Source: a virus
Virus record (IMG/VR): IMGVR_UViG_3300034190_000284
Coordinates: 1 to 33,462 of that record
Reading direction: 5' to 3' (one strand)
DNA length: 33,462 nucleotides
How positions within the stretch are numbered: the stretch's first letter is position 1; each line of letters opens with the position of its first letter. Shown here piece after piece: positions 9,229 through 19,838 of this stretch. The translations under genes were made by a program, and so were the position numbers. Under the pieces are notes generated by a model. That model was not told the DNA's origin. It made no database searches and worked only from the letters and a program-made list of their open reading frames with translations.

Positions 9229-10650
9229 TTAGATTTTCAATCCACTGAAATCTTTTCGGCCAGCTTTCTTGGTCATCCATTGCATCGAATCATCTTCCTT
9301 CATGCGCTTACCGTATCCCGTCTGATCAAATACTGGACCATTATCGACAACATCCTCTTGAGCCTGTTGCTCAACATCGTACAGTCGCATCTTAGCTCGG
9401 TCAATGCCAACCATGAACCTTTTGTACTGTCCTGGGTCACCATAACGATTCTTTAATTGCTTGATCATTATTTGCCCCATCTCATCAAGTTCTTCAGTAA
9501 CGATCAGCGCCGCCATAAAGTCAGCTGTAGCTGGCAAACCAAACGACTCAGATGTATCAGTCAAGTCAATATCACTGCTACCATAACCGCTTCGGGTTGT
9601 CTGAGTAGCTGTCACAATAGGTACGTTTTGCTCACCGGCCAACCCACGTATCTCTTCAGCAATTGCTTTAACCAAAGTGTAGGAGTTATGATTACCGCCA
9701 TTGCGGAGGCGGGATGACATACAAATATTAAGATAATCAATATAGATGATATCAGGTATAAATGACTTCTTCAGCTTCAACTCATTGAGAAGGTGACGGA
9801 AATGCCCAGTACCAGCTGACGCAGTAGGATATTCTTTCACGACCAACTTACCTGACGTCTTACCCTTTACCCGCGCAATCTTCTTATCATACATGGTCTT
9901 TGACAAAGTCTTCAGGTCGTCGAGTGTCACATTGAGTAGATTGGCATCGATACGCTCCGCAATCTTTTCCTCAGCCATTTCCATTGTAATGTAGAGAACG
10001 TTCTTACCGTCCATCATATTAGCCGAAGCCATATGGCACATAGCCAATGACTTACCTGCGCCAGTACCAGCCATCAAAACATTCAAAGTCTTACGAGGCA
10101 AACCACCACCAGTAATCTTATTCATGTACTCAAGGTCAAATGGAACCTTTTCTTCTTTACGATGGTAGAAGTCAAACCGCTCGCTGGCATCTTCAATAAA
10201 GTCGTGACCAACATTAGGGTCAAAAGAAACGGCAAGAGCATCAGACAGTAACTCGGGAATAGCACCCTTATCCCTGTCTTCACTCCCATTCGAGTCTATA
10301 ATGCCAATGCTTTCCATAATAGCATTATAGACTGCTTTCTCTTGGCAAAACTTTTCGGTTGTCTTTAACAGCCAATCCTGATCTTCAGCCTGCTGGATAT
10401 CGAGTTCGGAAATATACTTACCACATTCCTCAAACTCTTTATCCGTCAGGTTGCTGACTGCATCTAGCTCAATTGTTAATGCTTCTTTAGTCGGAAGCGA
10501 GTTATACTTCTCAATAAAGTAATCAATTTGTTGATAGACCGTTTTCTCAACACGGTCTGCGAAATACTCTGGCTTTAGATATGGAAGCGTTCTTCTCGCA
10601 AATGCTTCATCATTCAGCAGGTGTCTCAGTATTAGTGTCTCTGTCGCCAT
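9229..10650 (-). CDS. 41: Replicative DNA helicase gp41 (DnaB/RecA-fold)
   Basis: This 473-residue protein is almost exactly the length of T4 gp41 (475). The helicase domain starts near residue 165 with PFDLEYMNKITGGGLPRKTL, then Walker A AGTGAGKS, Walker B-type DIIYIDYLNICM, and a conserved VTATQTTRSGYGSSDIDLTD loop with Gln/Thr sensor and DNA-contacting loop features of the DnaB family. The enzyme unwinds DNA 5' to 3' on the lagging strand and works with the primase and the polymerase holoenzyme. It starts 41 bases inside the end of the upstream gene, so translation is coupled to it. It closes the early replication block; an inverted repeat follows its stop. Confidence 0.95.
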   Translation of the reverse strand: MATETLILRHLLNDEAFARRTLPYLKPEYFADRVEKTVYQQIDYFIEKYNSLPTKEALTIELDAVSNLTDKEFEECGKYISELDIQQAEDQDWLLKTTEKFCQEKAVYNAIMESIGIIDSNGSEDRDKGAIPELLSDALAVSFDPNVGHDFIEDASERFDFYHRKEEKVPFDLEYMNKITGGGLPRKTLNVLMAGTGAGKSLAMCHMASANMMDGKNVLYITMEMAEEKIAERIDANLLNVTLDDLKTLSKTMYDKKIARVKGKTSGKLVVKEYPTASAGTGHFRHLLNELKLKKSFIPDIIYIDYLNICMSSRLRNGGNHNSYTLVKAIAEEIRGLAGEQNVPIVTATQTTRSGYGSSDIDLTDTSESFGLPATADFMAALIVTEELDEMGQIMIKQLKNRYGDPGQYKRFMVGIDRAKMRLYDVEQQAQEDVVDNGPVFDQTGYGKRMKEDDSMQWMTKKAGRKDFSGLKI

Positions 10651-10915
10651 CTCTCATCTCTCTCACGTTTTCTTCAATTATCCCAGCAAGAATTTCGCCG
10701 GTAATTTTTTCATAATCACGGAACGCAGCAATCTCTTCACCTTCAATCCACAATACATCAAAGTCTAAAAATCCTACGCCGTCATCATCTTCCCTAAAAG
10801 TTACTGTATCATATTGGTAAACAACTCCCTCTAAGTCGCCCTCCAATATCTTAATTGCCCAATGATCATCATGAAAAGCATCATCATGCTGGACCAAATC
10901 ATACTTAACTGGCAT
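10610..10915 (-). CDS. Small acidic protein between uvsX and gene 41
   Basis: I start this at the ATG at 10915 (101 residues, MPVKYDLVQHDDAFHDDHWA); the upstream TTG would add only two residues. It overlaps the end of uvsX by 11 bases and overlaps gp41 by 41 bases. The sequence is very acidic with a beta-rich middle (VVYQYDTVTFREDDDGVGFL) and a helical acidic end. I recall similar small proteins at this place in marine T4-like phages, and T4 itself has gene 40 between uvsX and 41, but I cannot show homology with gp40. No catalytic motif is visible. A role in replication is suggested only by its place in the operon. Confidence 0.75.
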   Translation of the reverse strand: MPVKYDLVQHDDAFHDDHWAIKILEGDLEGVVYQYDTVTFREDDDGVGFLDFDVLWIEGEEIAAFRDYEKITGEILAGIIEENVREMRDGDRDTNTETPAE

Positions 10916-11951
10916 CTTCAATCTCCTCTACAATTGGTTCTTCTTCACCGGAACCATACTTAAACTCTTTACCAGCTGCGACTTCAATTTGCGCCATAAT
11001 ATCATCGGTAAAATATTCAGATGGATTTGTGTAGATAGCCTTGGCGAATACTTTACGACCATCAGGAAGTTCATAGCGTGTAGAAACTTTCTTGAATATG
11101 TCATACTTCTCAGCAAGGTCTACCAGACCATAGTAACGATCAAGGCCACTGGTATATGATAACTTGACTTCAACTTTCTTCTGCTCTTTAGTGAATCTAG
11201 ACTTATGCATAGTGACTTTGATAATATTACCAATCACGTCAGTTCCGTCACGATCCTTCTTCTTACCGAGCATTACAATGGAAGAAGCAGCATACTTCAA
11301 GCCAGATCCGCCGCTGATTTCTTTGGTAGGAATATATGCGCCAATCACATCATAGACGTGGTTAGTGACCAGAAGCGGGACATTAGCTTTAGCCAACTTC
11401 AATGAAAGAACACGGAATGTTCCGCGCAGTAATTGCGACTTGGTCATATCACGCTTATCACTACCAGACTCAGTATCGGCCAGCTCTTTGGCAGACGACA
11501 ACATACCAAGCGAATCAAGAACCATCATCATCGGGGGAGCTTCTTTACCCTGATCAATATAACTTGTCAGAATACGAGTGGCATTAGTTCGGAACTCTTC
11601 AATCGAAGATGGCTCAGAAATAACAACACGCTTTGTGTCAATGCCCCGATCATCCATCATCTGCCTAGTGACAGCAGCTTCTGTGTCAAAGTAAATGACA
11701 CCGCCAGTAGGATTATCTGCCAAGAACTGCTTGAGCACACCCAAAACAAAGAACGTCTTACCTGTAGCGGATTCACCCGCAAAGGCACTAATCTTATTAT
11801 TGGGCACGCCGCCATAAATACTACCAGAGATAGCAGCGTTCAATATATAAGAACCGGTGTCAATAGAACCTGAGAACTCAGAACTATTACCACCATCACT
11901 CAGGAGAGACGTATTGTCAATCCCCTTTACCATATCAGTTAAAAAACTCAT
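10905..11951 (-). CDS. uvsX: UvsX recombinase (RecA family)
   Basis: This 348-residue RecA-fold protein is near the length of marine T4-like UvsX and shorter than T4's 391. Walker A is GESATGKTFFV at about 59-69, a GGVIYFDTEAAVTRQMM strand-helix follows, and Walker B is MMMVLDSLGML. The loop-like GAYIPTKEISGGSGLKYAAS region and TNHVYD match UvsX/RecA DNA-binding and ATP-sensing regions. It forms filaments on single-stranded DNA and drives strand exchange for recombination-dependent replication. It overlaps the 2OG-oxygenase gene by 4 bases (ATGA) and lies two genes downstream of gp43B, as in marine T4-like genomes. The promoter at 12512-12540 probably drives it. Confidence 0.95.
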   Translation of the reverse strand: MSFLTDMVKGIDNTSLLSDGGNSSEFSGSIDTGSYILNAAISGSIYGGVPNNKISAFAGESATGKTFFVLGVLKQFLADNPTGGVIYFDTEAAVTRQMMDDRGIDTKRVVISEPSSIEEFRTNATRILTSYIDQGKEAPPMMMVLDSLGMLSSAKELADTESGSDKRDMTKSQLLRGTFRVLSLKLAKANVPLLVTNHVYDVIGAYIPTKEISGGSGLKYAASSIVMLGKKKDRDGTDVIGNIIKVTMHKSRFTKEQKKVEVKLSYTSGLDRYYGLVDLAEKYDIFKKVSTRYELPDGRKVFAKAIYTNPSEYFTDDIMAQIEVAAGKEFKYGSGEEEPIVEEIEDAS

Positions 11952-12487
11952 ACAAAATTATCCTCACTCGGTTTAGTTATCCAGACATTTGTGGCAAAGC
12001 ATCTTCGTAATCCAGATGTTACATGGGTCACTCGATGGACAGTACCAGAATCAAATATAATTAGGCGATTCGGAACAGGCTGAAGGCGCTCGACACCATC
12101 ATCCCGCTGAATCTCAAGATACCCTTCATCCGGAAGGGTCTTGTGGCAATAGTAAACTGAACCAATATAAGGTGTATTCAGTTCACGAGACTCTTCTCCT
12201 TGGGCATAAAGGTGTTCATCCTTATCAAAGTGCCAAGGCAAATCCTGCTGCTTTCCAGGGAAAGACATGATGTTATTCCAGTACTCAATACCCGCATAAT
12301 CTCCAGGCATCATACCATGAACGGCAACAGTATCCCAAATGCGCTCAGTAACCATTTCCCATATATTGGAAGGTTTATCGCCTTTATCCATAAAGCTATA
12401 AGGCAATGTACCGCCCCAGAACCTATCGTGCTGAATATCAAACAGCAAGGGATCATCATCACTTAAAAAATTATCAATCACTAACAT
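11948..12487 (-). CDS. 2-oxoglutarate/Fe(II)-dependent oxygenase (prolyl-hydroxylase-like)
   Basis: This 179-residue protein has the facial triad of 2OG-Fe(II) oxygenases. His86 and Asp88 lie in LPWHFDKDEH, His151 in DSGTVHRVTHV, and Arg161 or Arg162 in GLRRCFATNVWI is the expected 2-oxoglutarate-binding Arg. LVIDNFLSDDD at the N-terminus is typical of prolyl-hydroxylase-like members of the superfamily. The substrate (protein, nucleic acid or small molecule) cannot be read. T4-like marine phages commonly carry several such enzymes. The gene has its own promoter with perfect spacing, starts 49 bases after the previous gene, and shares ATGA with uvsX, so it is expressed with the recombination and helicase genes. 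Confidence 0.85.
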   Translation of the reverse strand: MLVIDNFLSDDDPLLFDIQHDRFWGGTLPYSFMDKGDKPSNIWEMVTERIWDTVAVHGMMPGDYAGIEYWNNIMSFPGKQQDLPWHFDKDEHLYAQGEESRELNTPYIGSVYYCHKTLPDEGYLEIQRDDGVERLQPVPNRLIIFDSGTVHRVTHVTSGLRRCFATNVWITKPSEDNFV

Positions 12488-12803: not shown

Positions 12804-13910
12804 CTATCCGAAAAAGCCTTCAAGAGTAGACTTTCTCTCATCGCTCCAGCCAACTGACTCGAGTATAATTTTAAGTGGGTCAAGAAACGCTTTGTTAAAC
12901 TGCGTATCATAATCAATGTAACCGCTCAGATCAAACTCTTTGGGCAATCCATGCATGACACTTATCACATTATGTTGTGAGGGGTTTGGTTTATTTAGGT
13001 AGCAGAACTTGATCTTTTCGCCATCCTTGATCACCTCGTACTTCTTAGTCAACTTATGCTTCCGGAGTAAATGATTGTACACTAGACCACCTCGAACATG
13101 GATAGGTGTACTCTTAGGAATATTCAGATCGGTAGCATTGCCATCATAATATTTACCAAAGTCAGATACTGACCGTGGAAAGGCAACTTCCTCAAACGTC
13201 ATCTTCTCGAACTTAGTTCTAAAATCGGAGATAAACGCTTGGGCAGTTTCCTCATCCTCATTCATGATAATGTTAATGGCAGCTTCAAGAGAATCCCTGC
13301 ATGATTGCGGAGTAGATGACTTTACTGTTTCAATACCCATCATCTTCAGCTTAGGAGTAGAGTAACGAACGCCCTCATTATCATAGACGTTCATCATGTA
13401 TCTTTTCTTAGCAGTCCAGATTGCCTTATCCGCAATAACCTCACGCTTCATAAACATCTTCTGGTCGAACGAATTGGTTATTTGTGCCAGTTCTTCATAA
13501 CTTTTATCAATAAAAGGTTCCAGCTTCTCGCTTGCAACTGTGTCCAAGAAGTTGACGATTTTGACAGGGTCACTTCCCTCTTCAAAGCATTTACCCACAA
13601 GTGCATCGAAATTAACGTAAATCGAGTCTGTATCCGATGCGATAACATAGTCAGCTTCGGATGTTTGCAGTATCTTATTAAGGTATTCATTTACTCTCCT
13701 CTCAATCCAACGAATGGATAATTGCCCTGATAGCGTGATGGCCTCAGCTTTCCTCACATCGAAGAACCTGAAATATTTGTTTCCAACAGCGCCATATGCT
13801 GAGTTTAGCTGAACCTTCTTAGCAAGCTGAAGATTCTTGTACTTGCTTATATCTTTGATCACTTGCTTCTTGCGCTCAAGAAGGTCAGCCTTACTCATGT
13901 TTTCAATCAT
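12804..13910 (-). CDS. 43B: DNA polymerase gp43, C-terminal part (gp43B)
   Basis: This 368-residue protein is the C-terminal part of a family B polymerase. It begins at MIENMSKADL, in the fingers region, and carries motif B (KKVQLNSAYGAVGN at 31-44, with the conserved K, N and YG) and motif C (ASDTDSIYV at 91-99, with catalytic Asp93 and Asp95). The KAIWTAKKRYMMNVYDNEG block matches T4 gp43. The terminus DERKSTLEGFFG resembles the gp45 clamp-binding tail of T4 gp43. It lacks motif A, which lies in gp43A, so neither half can be active alone and the two must assemble. Its start overlaps the stop of the small intervening gene (TAATG). Total length of the halves is 849 residues, against 898 in T4. 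Confidence 0.95.
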   Translation of the reverse strand: MIENMSKADLLERKKQVIKDISKYKNLQLAKKVQLNSAYGAVGNKYFRFFDVRKAEAITLSGQLSIRWIERRVNEYLNKILQTSEADYVIASDTDSIYVNFDALVGKCFEEGSDPVKIVNFLDTVASEKLEPFIDKSYEELAQITNSFDQKMFMKREVIADKAIWTAKKRYMMNVYDNEGVRYSTPKLKMMGIETVKSSTPQSCRDSLEAAINIIMNEDEETAQAFISDFRTKFEKMTFEEVAFPRSVSDFGKYYDGNATDLNIPKSTPIHVRGGLVYNHLLRKHKLTKKYEVIKDGEKIKFCYLNKPNPSQHNVISVMHGLPKEFDLSGYIDYDTQFNKAFLDPLKIILESVGWSDERKSTLEGFFG

Positions 13911-14194
13911 TAAAGAATAATCCCACTTGTCGCAGAAAGATACGCCTTCTCAATATCAGCATTAGTTTCTGTCACAAAGACAATACCACCAGAGAAGAAC
14001 TCAATCATGGGAGTATCCTTTACGCCAGTCTGACATACGCCATATGCAAAACCCATACCGCCATCCTTGCCTGAGACCAACATACGCGGATCTTTAATCT
14101 TCACCCCAGTAGGACTTCGATCTTCAAACTTACCAACAAACTCACCAGTCAGTGTTACTAGAGATACTACATCACCTTTCTTCATATTGTTCAT
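13910..14194 (-). CDS. Small beta-barrel-like protein between the two gp43 halves
   Basis: This 94-residue soluble protein starts MNNMKKGDVVSLVTLTGEFV and continues GKFEDRSPTGVKIKDPRMLV, then FVTETNADIEKAYLSATSGI. The KKGDVVSLVTLTGE opening resembles SH3/Sm-like small beta-barrels. I recall similar proteins from marine T4-like phages, usually near gp43. It lies in the polymerase gene with start and stop codons overlapping both halves (ATGA with gp43A, TAATG with gp43B). It lacks intein splice residues and homing-endonuclease motifs, so it is not the intervening MobE-type gene reported in some other split-gp43 phages. It could help assemble the halves, but that is speculation. Confidence 0.8.
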   Translation of the reverse strand: MNNMKKGDVVSLVTLTGEFVGKFEDRSPTGVKIKDPRMLVSGKDGGMGFAYGVCQTGVKDTPMIEFFSGGIVFVTETNADIEKAYLSATSGIIL

Positions 14195-15636
14195 ATTGCT
14201 TTCAACCTATTGTTAATTAATTCTAGTTCAGCTTCGGATTCAAGCATCTTCTTCTTGTATCCTTTACGCTCAGTGTACATACGTTCCATCATTTCAGGCA
14301 AGAACCCTTGCTTATCCCTTCGGAAGAAGTGACCATTGGCCGCCATACAGCGGTCAGTTGTCGACCTCACTTTCCGGTCAATGATGTCATCAATCGTTAC
14401 ATCTTCATACTCACCTTCAACAAAAGTTTCGGGGGAGATATTATACTGCATAATCAAATGCGGATACAGAGAATTCAAATCGAAACTCATAACCCACTTG
14501 TGCATACCAACTTGCGGATCCTTAACGTATGCCCCAGCAAAAGTTGAATCCTTAAATGATTCTTCCTTCGGTGGGATAACTATCCGCTTGTTTATCAGGT
14601 AATTATGTATAAGAACATCCCACATCGTTACCTGAGTGAATGTGTCATTGTAGTTTACCTTAGCATCATAAGCAATAGCCAAAGCCATCTCAATCAGCTT
14701 CATCTTATCTTCAAGTTTATCAATCAACTCCACATCTTTAATATTATAGTCGATAAACTTCTGATAGTCAAGTTTATGGAGTTGATTTAGATTACCAACG
14801 TCAGAGTAATCAATCTTCCTCTCGCCCAATTCTACGTGAGCAATATGATCAAGGCGATAAGATGCCTGTTGAGAATATGTAAACTTCTTATACAGCTGCA
14901 GGTAATCTAGCGTAGCAATACCAGTCAGCTCCCACAATATTTCTTGGCGATTGAATTTAGTAATCTCGCGCTTCTTCAACCAACGGAATGGGGACAGCCG
15001 CTTTACTTCCTCATTACCAAGAAGTTTGCCAATACGATTGACCAGATATGGGATATCGAATCCTTCAATATTCCAACCAGTAATGATATCGGGGTCAAGG
15101 TTCTGCCAGAAGTTTAAGAAGATAGACAATAGACGCTTCTCGTCTTTGGCGTCAATATAGTGAACATCTTCCCGAGACTTTTTATACTCGCCAACACCAA
15201 CAACCCAATAGAACTTCCTGCCTTCCTTCATATGAGAAACACAAATAGCTGTTACAGGCTGGTTAGCCAGTTCCGGCAAGGGGAACCCATCCTCAGAGCC
15301 AACCTCAATATCTATGTTTGCTACCTTGATCTGTTCAACATCATAATCGTTCCCGAACTTCTCATTCAGGTAAACATACGCCCATTTGGTTGAGCCATAG
15401 ATTTTAAAGTTATCAACCGCCTCATACTTCTTAGAAAACTGAGATGCTTCGCGGATATCGCCCATCTTAACAGGCTCGACATACTCACCACTCAAAGTTT
15501 TATACTCGGACTCCTTTCGAGAAGGGATGTATAAAGTTGGATTATATTGTTCCTGCTTTACAAATCGCTTGCCGTTTTTGTACCCGCGAGTATTGACCAT
15601 GTTGCCTCGGACGTGAGCATGAGTGTAGAAGTTCAA
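14191..15636 (-). CDS. 43A: DNA polymerase gp43, N-terminal part (gp43A)
   Basis: This 481-residue protein carries the exonuclease and first palm elements of a family B polymerase. Exo I is NIDIEVGSEDGF (Asp109, Glu111), Exo II GWNIEGFDIPYL (Asp194), Exo III YNIKDVELIDKL (Asp301) and motif A SFDLNSLYPHLIMQ (Asp386). It ends in a basic helix (RKGYKKKMLESEAELELINN), at the fingers tip, just before motif B. The start is TTG at 15636, giving MNFYTHAHVRGN, which lines up with the usual FYT...RGN start of marine T4-like gp43; the TTG overlaps the previous TGA, and AAGGG sits 8 bases upstream. A typical gp43 has both parts in one chain; here a stop separates them. Confidence 0.93.
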   Translation of the reverse strand: MNFYTHAHVRGNMVNTRGYKNGKRFVKQEQYNPTLYIPSRKESEYKTLSGEYVEPVKMGDIREASQFSKKYEAVDNFKIYGSTKWAYVYLNEKFGNDYDVEQIKVANIDIEVGSEDGFPLPELANQPVTAICVSHMKEGRKFYWVVGVGEYKKSREDVHYIDAKDEKRLLSIFLNFWQNLDPDIITGWNIEGFDIPYLVNRIGKLLGNEEVKRLSPFRWLKKREITKFNRQEILWELTGIATLDYLQLYKKFTYSQQASYRLDHIAHVELGERKIDYSDVGNLNQLHKLDYQKFIDYNIKDVELIDKLEDKMKLIEMALAIAYDAKVNYNDTFTQVTMWDVLIHNYLINKRIVIPPKEESFKDSTFAGAYVKDPQVGMHKWVMSFDLNSLYPHLIMQYNISPETFVEGEYEDVTIDDIIDRKVRSTTDRCMAANGHFFRRDKQGFLPEMMERMYTERKGYKKKMLESEAELELINNRLKAI

Positions 15637-16064
15637 ATTCCGTACCCTTCAAAGTTCTCAACTTCTAGTTCGTTCCACATAAATACTACGCAATGGTCGG
15701 TTTGGAAACCTTGTTCTTCAAGGAAAGAAGATTGATCATTTTCCCAACCTTCCTGAAGCATTTCCTCATCGGCATCTGTACATCCATCATAGCAAATATC
15801 TTCGGAGCAGCCGTCGTACGACCCAATAAACTCATATTCATCGAAGTCATATGGCTCAAAACAATCCTCATCCTCATTAGACATAGCCAGAGTCAGTCTC
15901 TCAACTTCTTCCGCAGTCATAGGAGTGATGTTAACAGTACCGCCGCGCCAGAGAATAGAAACAGTAACACTCCGACCATCCTCATGTGTAAAGGACTCAA
16001 CCTCCTCAAAACTTTTCTTGTATTTGGGAGATACTGAATAAACCTTACCGATTTCAATTTCCAT
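15633..16064 (-). CDS. Small acidic phage protein upstream of gp43A
   Basis: The ATG at 16064 is chosen because AGG lies 9 bases upstream; an ATG at 16070 also exists. The 143-residue protein begins MEIEIGKVYSVSPKYKKSFE, has a SVTVSILWRGGTVNITPMTA middle, and then an Asp/Glu/Cys-rich stretch (EDEDCFEPYDFDEYEFIGSY) with four cysteines. The cysteine cluster (C..., DGCSEDICYDGCTD) may bind a metal, but no known zinc pattern is clear. The gene overlaps the HAD gene's end region closely and shares TTGA with the start of gp43A, so it is co-translated with the polymerase. I recognise no family. A regulatory role is possible but unsupported. Confidence 0.7.
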   Translation of the reverse strand: MEIEIGKVYSVSPKYKKSFEEVESFTHEDGRSVTVSILWRGGTVNITPMTAEEVERLTLAMSNEDEDCFEPYDFDEYEFIGSYDGCSEDICYDGCTDADEEMLQEGWENDQSSFLEEQGFQTDHCVVFMWNELEVENFEGYGI

Positions 16065-16069
16065 AATCA

Positions 16070-16660
16070 TCAACCTGTAATAATATTGTAAATTTCATGC
16101 CAGTTATTAACTCTGACCGCATCACCATTATACGCTACATTGTACCCATGAGCAAGTAATAAAGAATTCAACCCAGCGGCAGCACCAACGTCAGCATTTT
16201 CTGCTTTATCTTCAACCCAGAAACAGCCAGTGCCTTTATACTTCGCAAGCGCCTCATCCTTATCACCACCGCATGGCAAGCATGTAACAACCTCAAAGAT
16301 GCCCTTACCAAATACAGCCTCAAGATTTTCAATACGAAGCTGGCGAGCTTTCGGGCAGTCAGACTGAGAAGTAATAGCGTGGAATACATAACCGTGGTCA
16401 GTATGCAGTTTACGAACATACTTAACAGCATCGCGAAACGGTGTCAGGTCACGTATCCAAGCACTCTCATTAAAGGAAGAGACCAATGGCTTGGTAACTT
16501 CTTTATCAACTCCAAATACTTCATTAATTTTATACATAGCGCCCCAACCACGAACAGGACTATATCCACGCCCTTCCATGTAGTTCATGAAACCATGAAC
16601 CCAATCAAACAAGACGCCATCGCAATCTGTCAAGATTACCTTTTCTTTACTTACATACAC
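16070..16660 (-). CDS. HAD-superfamily phosphatase/nucleotidase
   Basis: This 196-residue protein starts with GTG at 16660, preceded by GGAG at 8 bases. HAD motif I is LTDCDGVLFDWV (nucleophile Asp12, acid/base Asp14), motif II is AITSQ, a conserved Lys (KDEALAKYK) is near motif III, and WVEDKAENADVGAAAGL gives the metal-binding Asp motif IV. The Phe/Trp-rich cap resembles phage and bacterial 5'-nucleotidases or polynucleotide phosphatases, but a specific substrate is not visible. It sits immediately downstream of a TTGCCT-17-TATAAT promoter, at the head of the gp43 operon. Nucleotide salvage or end-healing are both reasonable readings. Confidence 0.8.
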   Translation of the reverse strand: MYVSKEKVILTDCDGVLFDWVHGFMNYMEGRGYSPVRGWGAMYKINEVFGVDKEVTKPLVSSFNESAWIRDLTPFRDAVKYVRKLHTDHGYVFHAITSQSDCPKARQLRIENLEAVFGKGIFEVVTCLPCGGDKDEALAKYKGTGCFWVEDKAENADVGAAAGLNSLLLAHGYNVAYNGDAVRVNNWHEIYNIITG

Positions 16661-17241: not shown

Positions 17242-19062
17242 TTATAACTTTGGAGAATAGATGGTTATGAGTTCTTCTTTACCTTTGACTTTGATGTCGC
17301 CTATTGGTCTCGATTCAATAGTGGTAAGTTGGTCCATTGTTGCGCGAGAGTAGATGGTCTTGTATTCGAGATACTCTCCTCGAGCTGCTGTGGCTTCGAG
17401 TCTGGCGGCAAGGTTAACTGCGTCTCCGATGACCGAATAGTCAAACCGTGACTCACTACCCATATTACCAACAATGCAAGTACCTGTATTGATGCCAGTT
17501 CCAACATTGATGGGGGGTAAACCCTGTTCTTGATATCGTCGTCTAAGTTCATTAGTCTTAATCTCTATCTCTATTCCTGACTTAACTGCCAAGTCGGCAT
17601 GGTTCTCGCACGGCAACGGCGCATTCCAAAATGCCATAATACAGTCGCCCATGTATTTATCTATCGTGCCGCCATTGTTTAGAATTATTTTCGTCATGGC
17701 GTCTAAATATTCGTTGATCAAATCAACCAAACCTTCAGGGTCATCATTGTTTTTGTAGTGCTCAGATATAGGTGTGAATCCTACGATGTCCATAAAGAGG
17801 AAACTCATCTCTTTACGCTCACCGCCCAACTTCAATAGAGAGGGATCTTTCTGCAGAAGATACACCATCTCCGGAGATAAATAAGTACCGAACTGCTTTT
17901 TAATTTGCTCTTTCTGCTTATATGTAGTATAATACCTATTGAAAGAACTTTGCCCAAATACAAGGATCCCTGCTAGTGAAGCCCAGACAACGTCTAAGAA
18001 CAAATACCCAGAATGCCAAACGTAGAAACCTGATGACATTACAGATAAGAGCAAGCCAAAAGACACTATCACCGCAGCTATTGTGGGAAGCGTGTAGACC
18101 GATACAAGGATACCTAGACACACTATCAAAAGAATCGCAAGCTCAGCTGCTACAGACCAGTCGGGTCGAAGTATTTGAACGCCTGAGATTAAGGTCTGAA
18201 TCTGATGACCTTGAACTTCGTGGGGATACATTGCACCCACTGGGGTTGGTACTGGATTAGCGACACCTTCAGCTGTAACCCCAAGTATCACAACCTTTCC
18301 TTCGGGTATCGGATCAAGTATTGATTGCGTTTTAAATTTATTCCAAAACGCTACTGGTAACTCGGAGGTTGGCTGTGTGATTAGCGGATCTTGCCTTCCC
18401 AACCTTATCCACTCAATTCCCAAATCATTCTTCTTAACAGTATATGACGGTTCTCCCAAAAACACCCTCACCGCATCAAGACCTAATGATGGGTATGGTT
18501 GCCCATTAATCCCAACTATAAGGGGAACTCTTCTTAGAACTCCAGTCGGTTGGTCTAGCTCCGCGGAAACAGCGCCCACACCCATAGCATATTGCGCAAG
18601 TTCGGGGATGGGTGTAAGCAGACCGGTGTAATTGACTAGAGTTTCTGGACCAGCGCCGAATGTAGAAACATTAGCATAAATGCCGAGATCATCTGTAGTA
18701 GTTTGGCGCGTAGGTGCGCTTGCTAATATTACTGCCTTCTGACTTAGCGAGGCGGATAGTTCTTGATCCCCCGCAAATCTATCTTCCTCTGACCATATCA
18801 TTGTTGATACGAGTAAGGAATTATTCGGTGCTTGATTTATGTACTTCGCGAGTGTTTGTCTTGGCCAGGGATATTGCCCTTCTTTCCTGATTGCTTCTTC
18901 ATCAATGTTCACGAGAACGATATCGTCAACTTCAATGATTTCATGACTGCGCTGTAGATAGTCGTAGTAGATATATTCTACTGCCTTAACTGTGTCGTAC
19001 TGTGAAACCTTTAAGAATGCGAGTAAGAATATTATAGGAAGAACCGAATACCACTTGGTCAT
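17242..19062 (-). CDS. CHASE2-domain class III adenylate cyclase, membrane bound
   Basis: The ATG at 19062 gives 606 residues and overlaps the curlin-B stop (TGATG); a TTG at 19107 is less likely. An N-terminal TM helix (about 5-19) is followed by a periplasmic CHASE2 sensor (about 22-300, with VNIDEEAIRKEGQYPWPR and the late PEGKVVILGVTAEGV strand), then three TM helices (about 304-372) and a class III cyclase domain (417-600). The metal aspartates are Asp425 (FMDIVGFT) and Asp473 (YMGDCIMAFW), adenine selectors Lys469 and Asp541, and transition-state residues Asn550 and Arg554 (VNLAARLE). All are intact, so it should make cAMP from ATP. FecR/CHASE2 partners are known in bacteria. It is the last gene of the curli-like operon. 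Confidence 0.92.
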   Translation of the reverse strand: MTKWYSVLPIIFLLAFLKVSQYDTVKAVEYIYYDYLQRSHEIIEVDDIVLVNIDEEAIRKEGQYPWPRQTLAKYINQAPNNSLLVSTMIWSEEDRFAGDQELSASLSQKAVILASAPTRQTTTDDLGIYANVSTFGAGPETLVNYTGLLTPIPELAQYAMGVGAVSAELDQPTGVLRRVPLIVGINGQPYPSLGLDAVRVFLGEPSYTVKKNDLGIEWIRLGRQDPLITQPTSELPVAFWNKFKTQSILDPIPEGKVVILGVTAEGVANPVPTPVGAMYPHEVQGHQIQTLISGVQILRPDWSVAAELAILLIVCLGILVSVYTLPTIAAVIVSFGLLLSVMSSGFYVWHSGYLFLDVVWASLAGILVFGQSSFNRYYTTYKQKEQIKKQFGTYLSPEMVYLLQKDPSLLKLGGERKEMSFLFMDIVGFTPISEHYKNNDDPEGLVDLINEYLDAMTKIILNNGGTIDKYMGDCIMAFWNAPLPCENHADLAVKSGIEIEIKTNELRRRYQEQGLPPINVGTGINTGTCIVGNMGSESRFDYSVIGDAVNLAARLEATAARGEYLEYKTIYSRATMDQLTTIESRPIGDIKVKGKEELITIYSPKL

Positions 19063-19838
19063 CAGTTTTGAGTCACTGATATGCCACAGCCACCAACTGT
19101 AATGCAATTTTGCTGTATCGAAAACGATTGGCCAGTAACGCCGCTTTGTGTGAGGGATATGTCAGTTCCGTATTGGCCTGTTATCAATATATCTGCGTGG
19201 TGATCGCCATGGCCTTTCTGAACAATTGATGCGATATTGTCATCACTAATAATACCAACCTCTAGGAACTGAGAACCACCTTCTTTCTGTTTAATGTGAA
19301 CGTCATTATCATCACCTTCGATCATGACATACGCTTCATGCCCAGAGGAATTGTTATTAGTTCTCTGAGAAACTTTAACTTCGTTGTAGTCGCCGTCGAT
19401 AGCAATACCAACAAACTGATCACCATGCTCATCATAATCTTCAATGAAGGTTCCGTTGGCATCAAGATCATATCCCTGACCAACCATTACAGTATTTCCG
19501 GTTCCTTCTAGTTCAGCTATCGACACTGCTTGGCCTTCAGTACCATACTGTCTATTCTGTTTAATGATGAGCGTGGTATTATCACCGGAGAGTAAACCAC
19601 TGAAATTCCAGACAGTGCCAGAACTATCTGTGTGAGTTACCTGCTCAGTAAGTACCTCATTGAGATATCCAAATTGAGAGATCTCTAAATTCAGGTTATC
19701 ACCACCCACCTGATCAATGGCTATCAAATTATCAGATAGCGCATTTGTTGACAAGATCATGAATATGACCAGAAGGAAACAAAACATTAACAGAACGTCA
19801 ACCACCCACCCTATAAAACCAAATATTACTCGAAACAT
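19062..19838 (-). CDS. Curlin-like amyloid repeat protein B
   Basis: This 258-residue protein has a hydrophobic N-terminal segment (residues 7-30) that acts as a long signal peptide or anchor, with a possible cut after STNALS. The rest is built of repeats of roughly 20-25 residues with the curlin pattern (alternating hydrophobics, then x-Q-x-G-x-x-N or G-D-x-N): LIAIDQVGGDNLNLEISQFG, IAIDGDYNEVKVSQR, VMIEGDDNDVHIKQK, DILITGQYGTDISLTQ. The final residues SVTQN and the CITVGGC pair are notable. Like CsgA/CsgB it lacks other known domains. It starts one base after the FecR stop (TAA-T-ATG). It could be the nucleator or an alternative fibre subunit. Secretion through CsgG is inferred. Confidence 0.82.
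   Translation of the reverse strand: MFRVIFGFIGWVVDVLLMFCFLLVIFMILSTNALSDNLIAIDQVGGDNLNLEISQFGYLNEVLTEQVTHTDSSGTVWNFSGLLSGDNTTLIIKQNRQYGTEGQAVSIAELEGTGNTVMVGQGYDLDANGTFIEDYDEHGDQFVGIAIDGDYNEVKVSQRTNNNSSGHEAYVMIEGDDNDVHIKQKEGGSQFLEVGIISDDNIASIVQKGHGDHHADILITGQYGTDISLTQSGVTGQSFSIQQNCITVGGCGISVTQN

Follow-up and report, generated by a model that had tools for sequence, protein, structure and literature searches.

A viral gp43 DNA polymerase split at the fingertip, with a gene for a predicted Sm-like protein between its halves

How can a replicative DNA polymerase be encoded in two separate pieces, and what is the small gene that lies between them doing there? This question is raised by a stretch of viral DNA of 33,462 nucleotides (IMG/VR record IMGVR_UViG_3300034190_000284, positions 1 to 33,462), which as a whole is called the window here. 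Its family B polymerase, gp43, is divided between two ORFs, gp43A and gp43B, and a third ORF, named S, fills the gap. A first-pass annotation, made from the sequence alone, had described the three ORFs with their ATGA and TAATG overlaps, and the ORF coordinates and the sequence agree with that description (Table 1).

Table 1. Features of the split polymerase locus in the window
Feature	Position	Strand	Basis or remark
gp43A: 3′-5′ exonuclease domain, motif A palm part, first fingers helix	14191..15636	-	ORF, Pfam, PHROG, RB69 alignment
S: Sm-like protein, phrog_527/3BY7 type	13910..14194	-	ORF, PHROG, alignment, AlphaFold, structure matches
gp43B: second fingers helix, motifs B and C, thumb, C-terminal clamp-type tail (TLEGFFG)	12804..13910	-	
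ATGA overlap of gp43A stop and S start	14191..14194	-	
TAATG overlap of S stop and gp43B start	13908..13912	-	
gp43A split-associated C-terminal extension, about residues 470–481, end of AELELINNRLKAI	14194..14229	-	shorter or absent in intact gp43
gp43B split-associated N-terminal extension, about residues 1–19, MIENMSKADLLERKKQVIK	13854..13910	-	predicted helix, continuous with fingers helix

According to the ORF list, gp43A has 481 amino acids and begins with a TTG that overlaps the upstream stop, and gp43B has 368. The two ORFs jointly span gp43 and nothing is lost between them: Pfam assigns DNA_pol_B_exo1 and the first part of DNA_pol_B to gp43A and the remaining DNA_pol_B to gp43B, and PHROG places the halves in separate families (phrog_2062 and phrog_1918). 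Motif A (SFDLNSLYP) is found in gp43A, while motif B (KKVQLNSAYG), motif C (ASDTDSIY), KKRY and the clamp-type tail are found in gp43B, so that the catalytic Asp residues are distributed over two chains and the clamp-binding end belongs to the second, both as first proposed. Across the 49 rows of the gp43B alignment, no fixed position of DTDS-x-Y (D, T, D, S, Y) varies; some split genes had been flagged only by a regular expression for motif C that was too strict, and the alignment shows that the motif is kept. The fingers of RB69 gp43 comprise residues 472–571. In the mapping to this protein, gp43A residue 477 corresponds to RB69 residue 502, and gp43B residue 27 to residue 555; since gp43A ends just past 502 and gp43B joins the alignment at 555, the cut lies at the tip of the fingers, which upholds and sharpens the original placing of the split in the fingers. 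The length of S needs a correction. It is 94 amino acids from the first ATG, as the first-pass annotation had counted, while its relatives start at a conserved MKKGD (14185 in the window), and from this common start the real length is probably 90–91 amino acids.

The arrangement is not confined to the window and belongs to a group of marine viruses that infect bacteria. A search with S in IMG/VR yielded 14 contigs with the identical gene order (S identity 69–100%), and after wider searches the order A-S-B was present in 24 non-identical contigs, in which gp43A identity goes down to about 59%. Since these contigs are independent and non-identical, the split exceeds chance and is no assembly error, the possibility that the first-pass annotation had set against itself. 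In one A-S-B contig of 133 kb (G002), the sole gp43A match is the split one. The dN/dS ratio is 0.03–0.09 for gp43A and gp43B and mostly about 0.05–0.38 for S, and by these values all three genes are under purifying selection. Among the named phages of the annotated phage collection, the A-S-B arrangement was not found; relatives of S occur there only in four Melnitz phage records (31% identity), all with an undivided gp43 at a distance of about 4 kb from the S relative.

Some neighbouring genes of the window may be recorded as well. An acidic protein of 146 amino acids without family match is encoded directly upstream of gp43A (15633–16073, minus strand); in contig L070, a relative of this protein (39%) and a free S gene are about 1.2 kb apart. 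A gene for CHASE2 plus adenylate/guanylate cyclase is located at 17242–19107 (minus strand); its relatives occur in Pelagibacter phage HTVC008M (43%) and the Melnitz phages (31%), and also near a free S in L056. Between uvsX and gp41 the window has one copy of a small gene (10610–10921), of which L011 and L012 have two in tandem (at 9426–10017).

What S is can be said chiefly from its predicted structure. The AlphaFold model, built on an alignment of 50 relatives, has a mean pLDDT of 89, and its best solved match (Foldseek, VIA-align) is PDB 3BY7, with Z 11.7 and rmsd 2.1 over 83 residues, an entry described as "structurally similar to Sm/LSm-like RNA-binding proteins"; the next matches by the same methods are archaeal and eukaryotic Sm/LSm proteins with Z of about 8. 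At the level of sequence, profile comparison gave E 5e-4 for phrog_527 and, for 3BY7, E 0.002 with profile A1 but 0.38 with the wider profile A2, and a direct phmmer search of S against solved structures gave no useful match. Because phmmer and profile A2 fail, the family link rests on the fold and on the bridging profile A1. By its model, therefore, S has an Sm fold, for which the support from sequence is weaker than that from structure, and the beta-barrel-like protein of the first-pass annotation takes on a more definite form. S shares this fold with the phage Sm-like family (3BY7, phrog_527), but it is only 15–20% identical to 3BY7 and is encoded inside gp43. S was also considered as an endonuclease and rejected, having no nuclease match in Pfam or PHROG and an Sm fold instead; the gap of the window is thus without an endonuclease, as had been stated. 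Most likely S would function alone, in the form of a small Sm-type ring whose target is probably RNA.

The S family is found in more places than the gap. Free-standing S genes occur in varied tight operons, namely after gp41, after the clamp loader gene gp44 and near uvsX, and distant Sm-like genes lie 0–12 nt upstream of gp43 in many relatives whose polymerase is intact or split with a 2OG-type gene. Such upstream genes adjoin gp43A in L131, L165, L203, L212, L137, L190 and others. In addition, all long contigs that were tested contain a divergent paralogue of the phrog_527 type. From these gene positions, the Sm-like family seems to be tied to the polymerase operon, and some link between Sm-like proteins and gp43 may exist, given the upstream genes and the ubiquitous paralogue.

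These observations bear on what S does. It is tentatively possible that S is an operon regulator and not a subunit, that is to say, an Sm-type RNA-binding ring tuning the translation of gp43B or of replication mRNA. T4 gp43 and RegA are known examples of such translational control, and S would add to control of this kind or replace it. In keeping with this role are the Sm fold of S and the Sm-like genes that, in relatives, precede gp43 by 0–12 nt or neighbour gp62/gp44, whereas the free S genes in unrelated operons speak against it. RNA binding by S is itself suggested by the modelled fold. In such a role S would be functional and no passenger, which is compatible with a homing-type origin of the split.

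The gap itself turns out to be a slot with changing contents. In the survey of polymerase loci, whose counts are biased since the searches were seeded with split genes, S occupies it in 24 non-identical contigs and a 2OG-Fe(II) oxygenase in 12; L125 has a GIY-YIG endonuclease together with S, L406 another GIY-YIG endonuclease, L331 and L332 a Vsr/DUF559-like endonuclease, L263–L265 a PMM/HAD-like protein, and L176 and L352 a small ORF of phrog_3538, while in L127–L130, L259, L340 and others the slot is free of genes and gp43A and gp43B overlap. In a tree of A+B made by a quick method (94 rows), intact sisters adjoin split forms and at least 12 changes between split and intact are seen; the clade of the window alone contains members with S, with endonuclease and S, with the PMM-like gene, without a gene, and with an intact polymerase. 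S therefore gives the impression of a lodger, housed in an insertion slot that is used repeatedly, and not of a third enzyme part. The window also carries a 2OG-Fe(II) oxygenase gene at 11948–12487 (minus strand), just upstream of uvsX, whose superfamily fills the gp43 gap elsewhere (gap ORFs of L133–L140 and L187–L195). A second insertion site in gp43 lies just past motif A (SLYP), after about gp43A residue 407, and holds HNH or GIY-YIG endonucleases or other ORFs (L284, L335, L385, L394, L282, L392).

How the slot may change hands is indicated by two near twins, L406 and L387. In L406 the GIY-YIG gene stands between A and B, and its last codons reach into the beginning of gp43B. In L387 the body of this gene is absent; what is left of it is the 3′ end (NGKVVTKGKAKGWKCELI in another frame), which now encodes the leader of gp43B. 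This scar implies that endonuclease genes leave the slot while gp43 stays split. Compared with L406, the stretch missing in L387 is flanked by AAAT at both places and resembles a deletion between short repeats. In the gap of the window itself, no endonuclease gene or remnant was seen with Pfam, PHROG or the structure of S.

On balance we favour, with moderate confidence, the reading that a homing-type insertion opened gp43 and that S is a co-transcribed resident with a role of its own, probably at the RNA level. An insertion at the fingertip, a site repeatedly used by homing endonucleases, would have cut gp43 into two cistrons, and the endonuclease would later have been lost or replaced; in the lineage of the window, the S gene would have been left in the slot or moved into it. 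The two chains would reassemble into an ordinary family B replicase, and S would be translated from the same operon without being needed for the assembly of A and B. Against this reading, it must be considered that the endonucleases could be later visitors to a site already split, that the window itself shows no remnant of one, that S is kept in the slot across much divergence under purifying selection, and that Sm-like paralogues adjoin gp43 in many relatives and occur in all the long contigs tested.

The first objection leads to a different and rather doubtful origin, in which the split did not come from homing: local gene shuffling would have broken gp43, with Sm-like, 2OG or other genes from nearby in the operon recombining into a tolerant loop, and endonucleases would have invaded later. 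The S and 2OG families both neighbour gp43/uvsX in this phage group, several splits have a gene-free gap, and in 44RR nothing but a short spacer separates 43 from 43B, for which late invasion has been considered possible; all of this is in favour of shuffling. However, three kinds of endonuclease at one spot and the scar of L387 indicate that homing genes come and go, as the homing-type origin would have it.

If the polymerase is in two chains, something should hold them together, and the fingertip offers a candidate. Between fixed anchors in the fingers helices there are 22–43 residues (median 29) in 169 intact genes and 42–74 residues (median 48) in 57 split genes. The additions lie on both sides of the split, for example ...ELELINNRLKAI at the end of A and MIENMSKADLLERKKQVIK... 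at the start of B, with heptad-like, leucine-patterned spacing, and in the model of gp43B, residues 7–36 are predicted as one helix running into the fingers helix. The longer fingertip helices are probably what keeps the two chains joined, in that the end of A and the beginning of B would pair as an extended antiparallel helical hairpin and act as a staple. The lengthening is alike whether the gap holds S, a 2OG gene, a PMM-like gene or nothing.

This last point also weighs on the idea that the polymerase has S as a third, dedicated subunit or as an assembly factor. S would then bind the A/B fingertip, which would explain why its gene lies between the halves and is co-translated with both. In favour of this idea are the A-S-B order with tight overlaps kept in 24 non-identical contigs, the purifying selection on S and the Sm-like genes that recur directly upstream of gp43 in relatives. 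The first-pass annotation had taken the overlaps as a sign of equal co-translation and a three-part complex, but 7 of 9 neighbouring gene junctions in the window cluster overlap likewise, so the overlaps are no argument for a complex. The slot holds other genes or nothing in relatives with the same fingertip extension, and where the same pairs of genomes are compared, S has a dN/dS about 4–10 times as high as A or B. S also stands beside an intact gp43 in the Melnitz phages, G004, G005, L019–L021, L085, L086 and L109; intact relatives with the small gene elsewhere, which had been named in advance as telling against the split, therefore exist, and the split itself is nevertheless real. No gene of the S type occurs in G006 (146.6 kb) or G007 (143 kb), two long split contigs that are possibly incomplete and that both contain the divergent Sm-like paralogue; the statement that split genomes without S lack any Sm-like protein was accordingly narrowed to the S type. 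Finally, S has been exchanged between lineages independently of A and B. The S of L011 is 82% identical to that of the window and 71% to that of L048, while its A/B are 74/77% identical to those of the window and 87/88% to those of L048; because S of L011 groups with the window and A+B with L048, with strong support in both trees, S was exchanged alone. The S tree fits a single arrival of S in the slot as well as repeated arrivals. That the polymerase has three dedicated subunits is thus unlikely, and S as lodger in the slot is the reading kept here.

An assembly error, a pseudogene, an intron, an intein or a translational bypass giving a single chain found no support and is hardly credible, with independent contigs, dN/dS of 0.03–0.09 in A and B (which together rule out assembly error and pseudogene) and a gap filled by the S reading frame. 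A group I/II intron was rejected for the fully coding gap and the absence of any Rfam intron match in the window or six relatives, and an intein or split intein for lack of room, each half having only about 10 residues more than intact gp43.

Split polymerases have been reported before. Aeromonas phages 44RR and 25 are known to have a split gp43; in phage 25 a seg endonuclease lies in the gap and 43A/43B co-purify with polymerase activity, and the authors left undecided which came first, the split or the endonuclease (PMC2988022). By analogy, the reassembled A+B enzyme of the window would be active. The split site of 44RR2.8t is identical to that of the window, as the comparison with other T4-like phages proposed at the outset has shown (44RR matches window A 1–480 and B 2–367), and two cistrons in one operon are common to all three. 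The gap contents differ, being an Sm-like gene in the window, a short spacer in 44RR and a seg-type endonuclease in phage 25, and the polymerase of the window is only 30/39% (A/B) identical to that of 44RR. The split of the window therefore belongs with the known split gp43 genes. In the OM43 phages MEP401 and MEP402, a family A polymerase is split by a small ORF without assigned function (PMC10580990). These are likewise marine phages with a replicative polymerase in two ORFs and a small non-endonuclease ORF between, but the polymerase is of family A and not B, the phage family is unrelated and the insert has no identification there. The PolB gene of MIJ3 is fractured, with an endonuclease gene between the pieces and a putative split intein (PMC6892783); it is also a polymerase B gene in two pieces, but there the putative split intein rejoins the chains, whereas the window has no intein sequence. 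What the window and its relatives add to this literature (the primary gp43-insertion paper, Petrov 2010, aside) is an insert of Sm-like type, a slot whose contents are exchanged, the scar of a lost endonuclease and a lengthened fingertip.

Taken further, the fingertip of T4-like replicases could be a reusable slot with a leucine-patterned helical staple, and in the clade of the window the resident S could have been recruited to the replisome or its mRNA as a regulator; this wider reading is unlikely as it stands. If the slot reading is true, the enzyme keeps working while almost any gene, selfish or useful, swaps between its halves. The split gp43, known so far as an oddity, becomes a natural series in which alleles of a single essential enzyme are intact, carry an endonuclease, bear the scar of one, hold another gene or have an empty gap. 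In this series the path from a selfish insertion to a stable two-chain replicase is directly testable, as is its structural price, the longer hairpin; and the fingertip staple would be a ready design for splitting family B polymerases.
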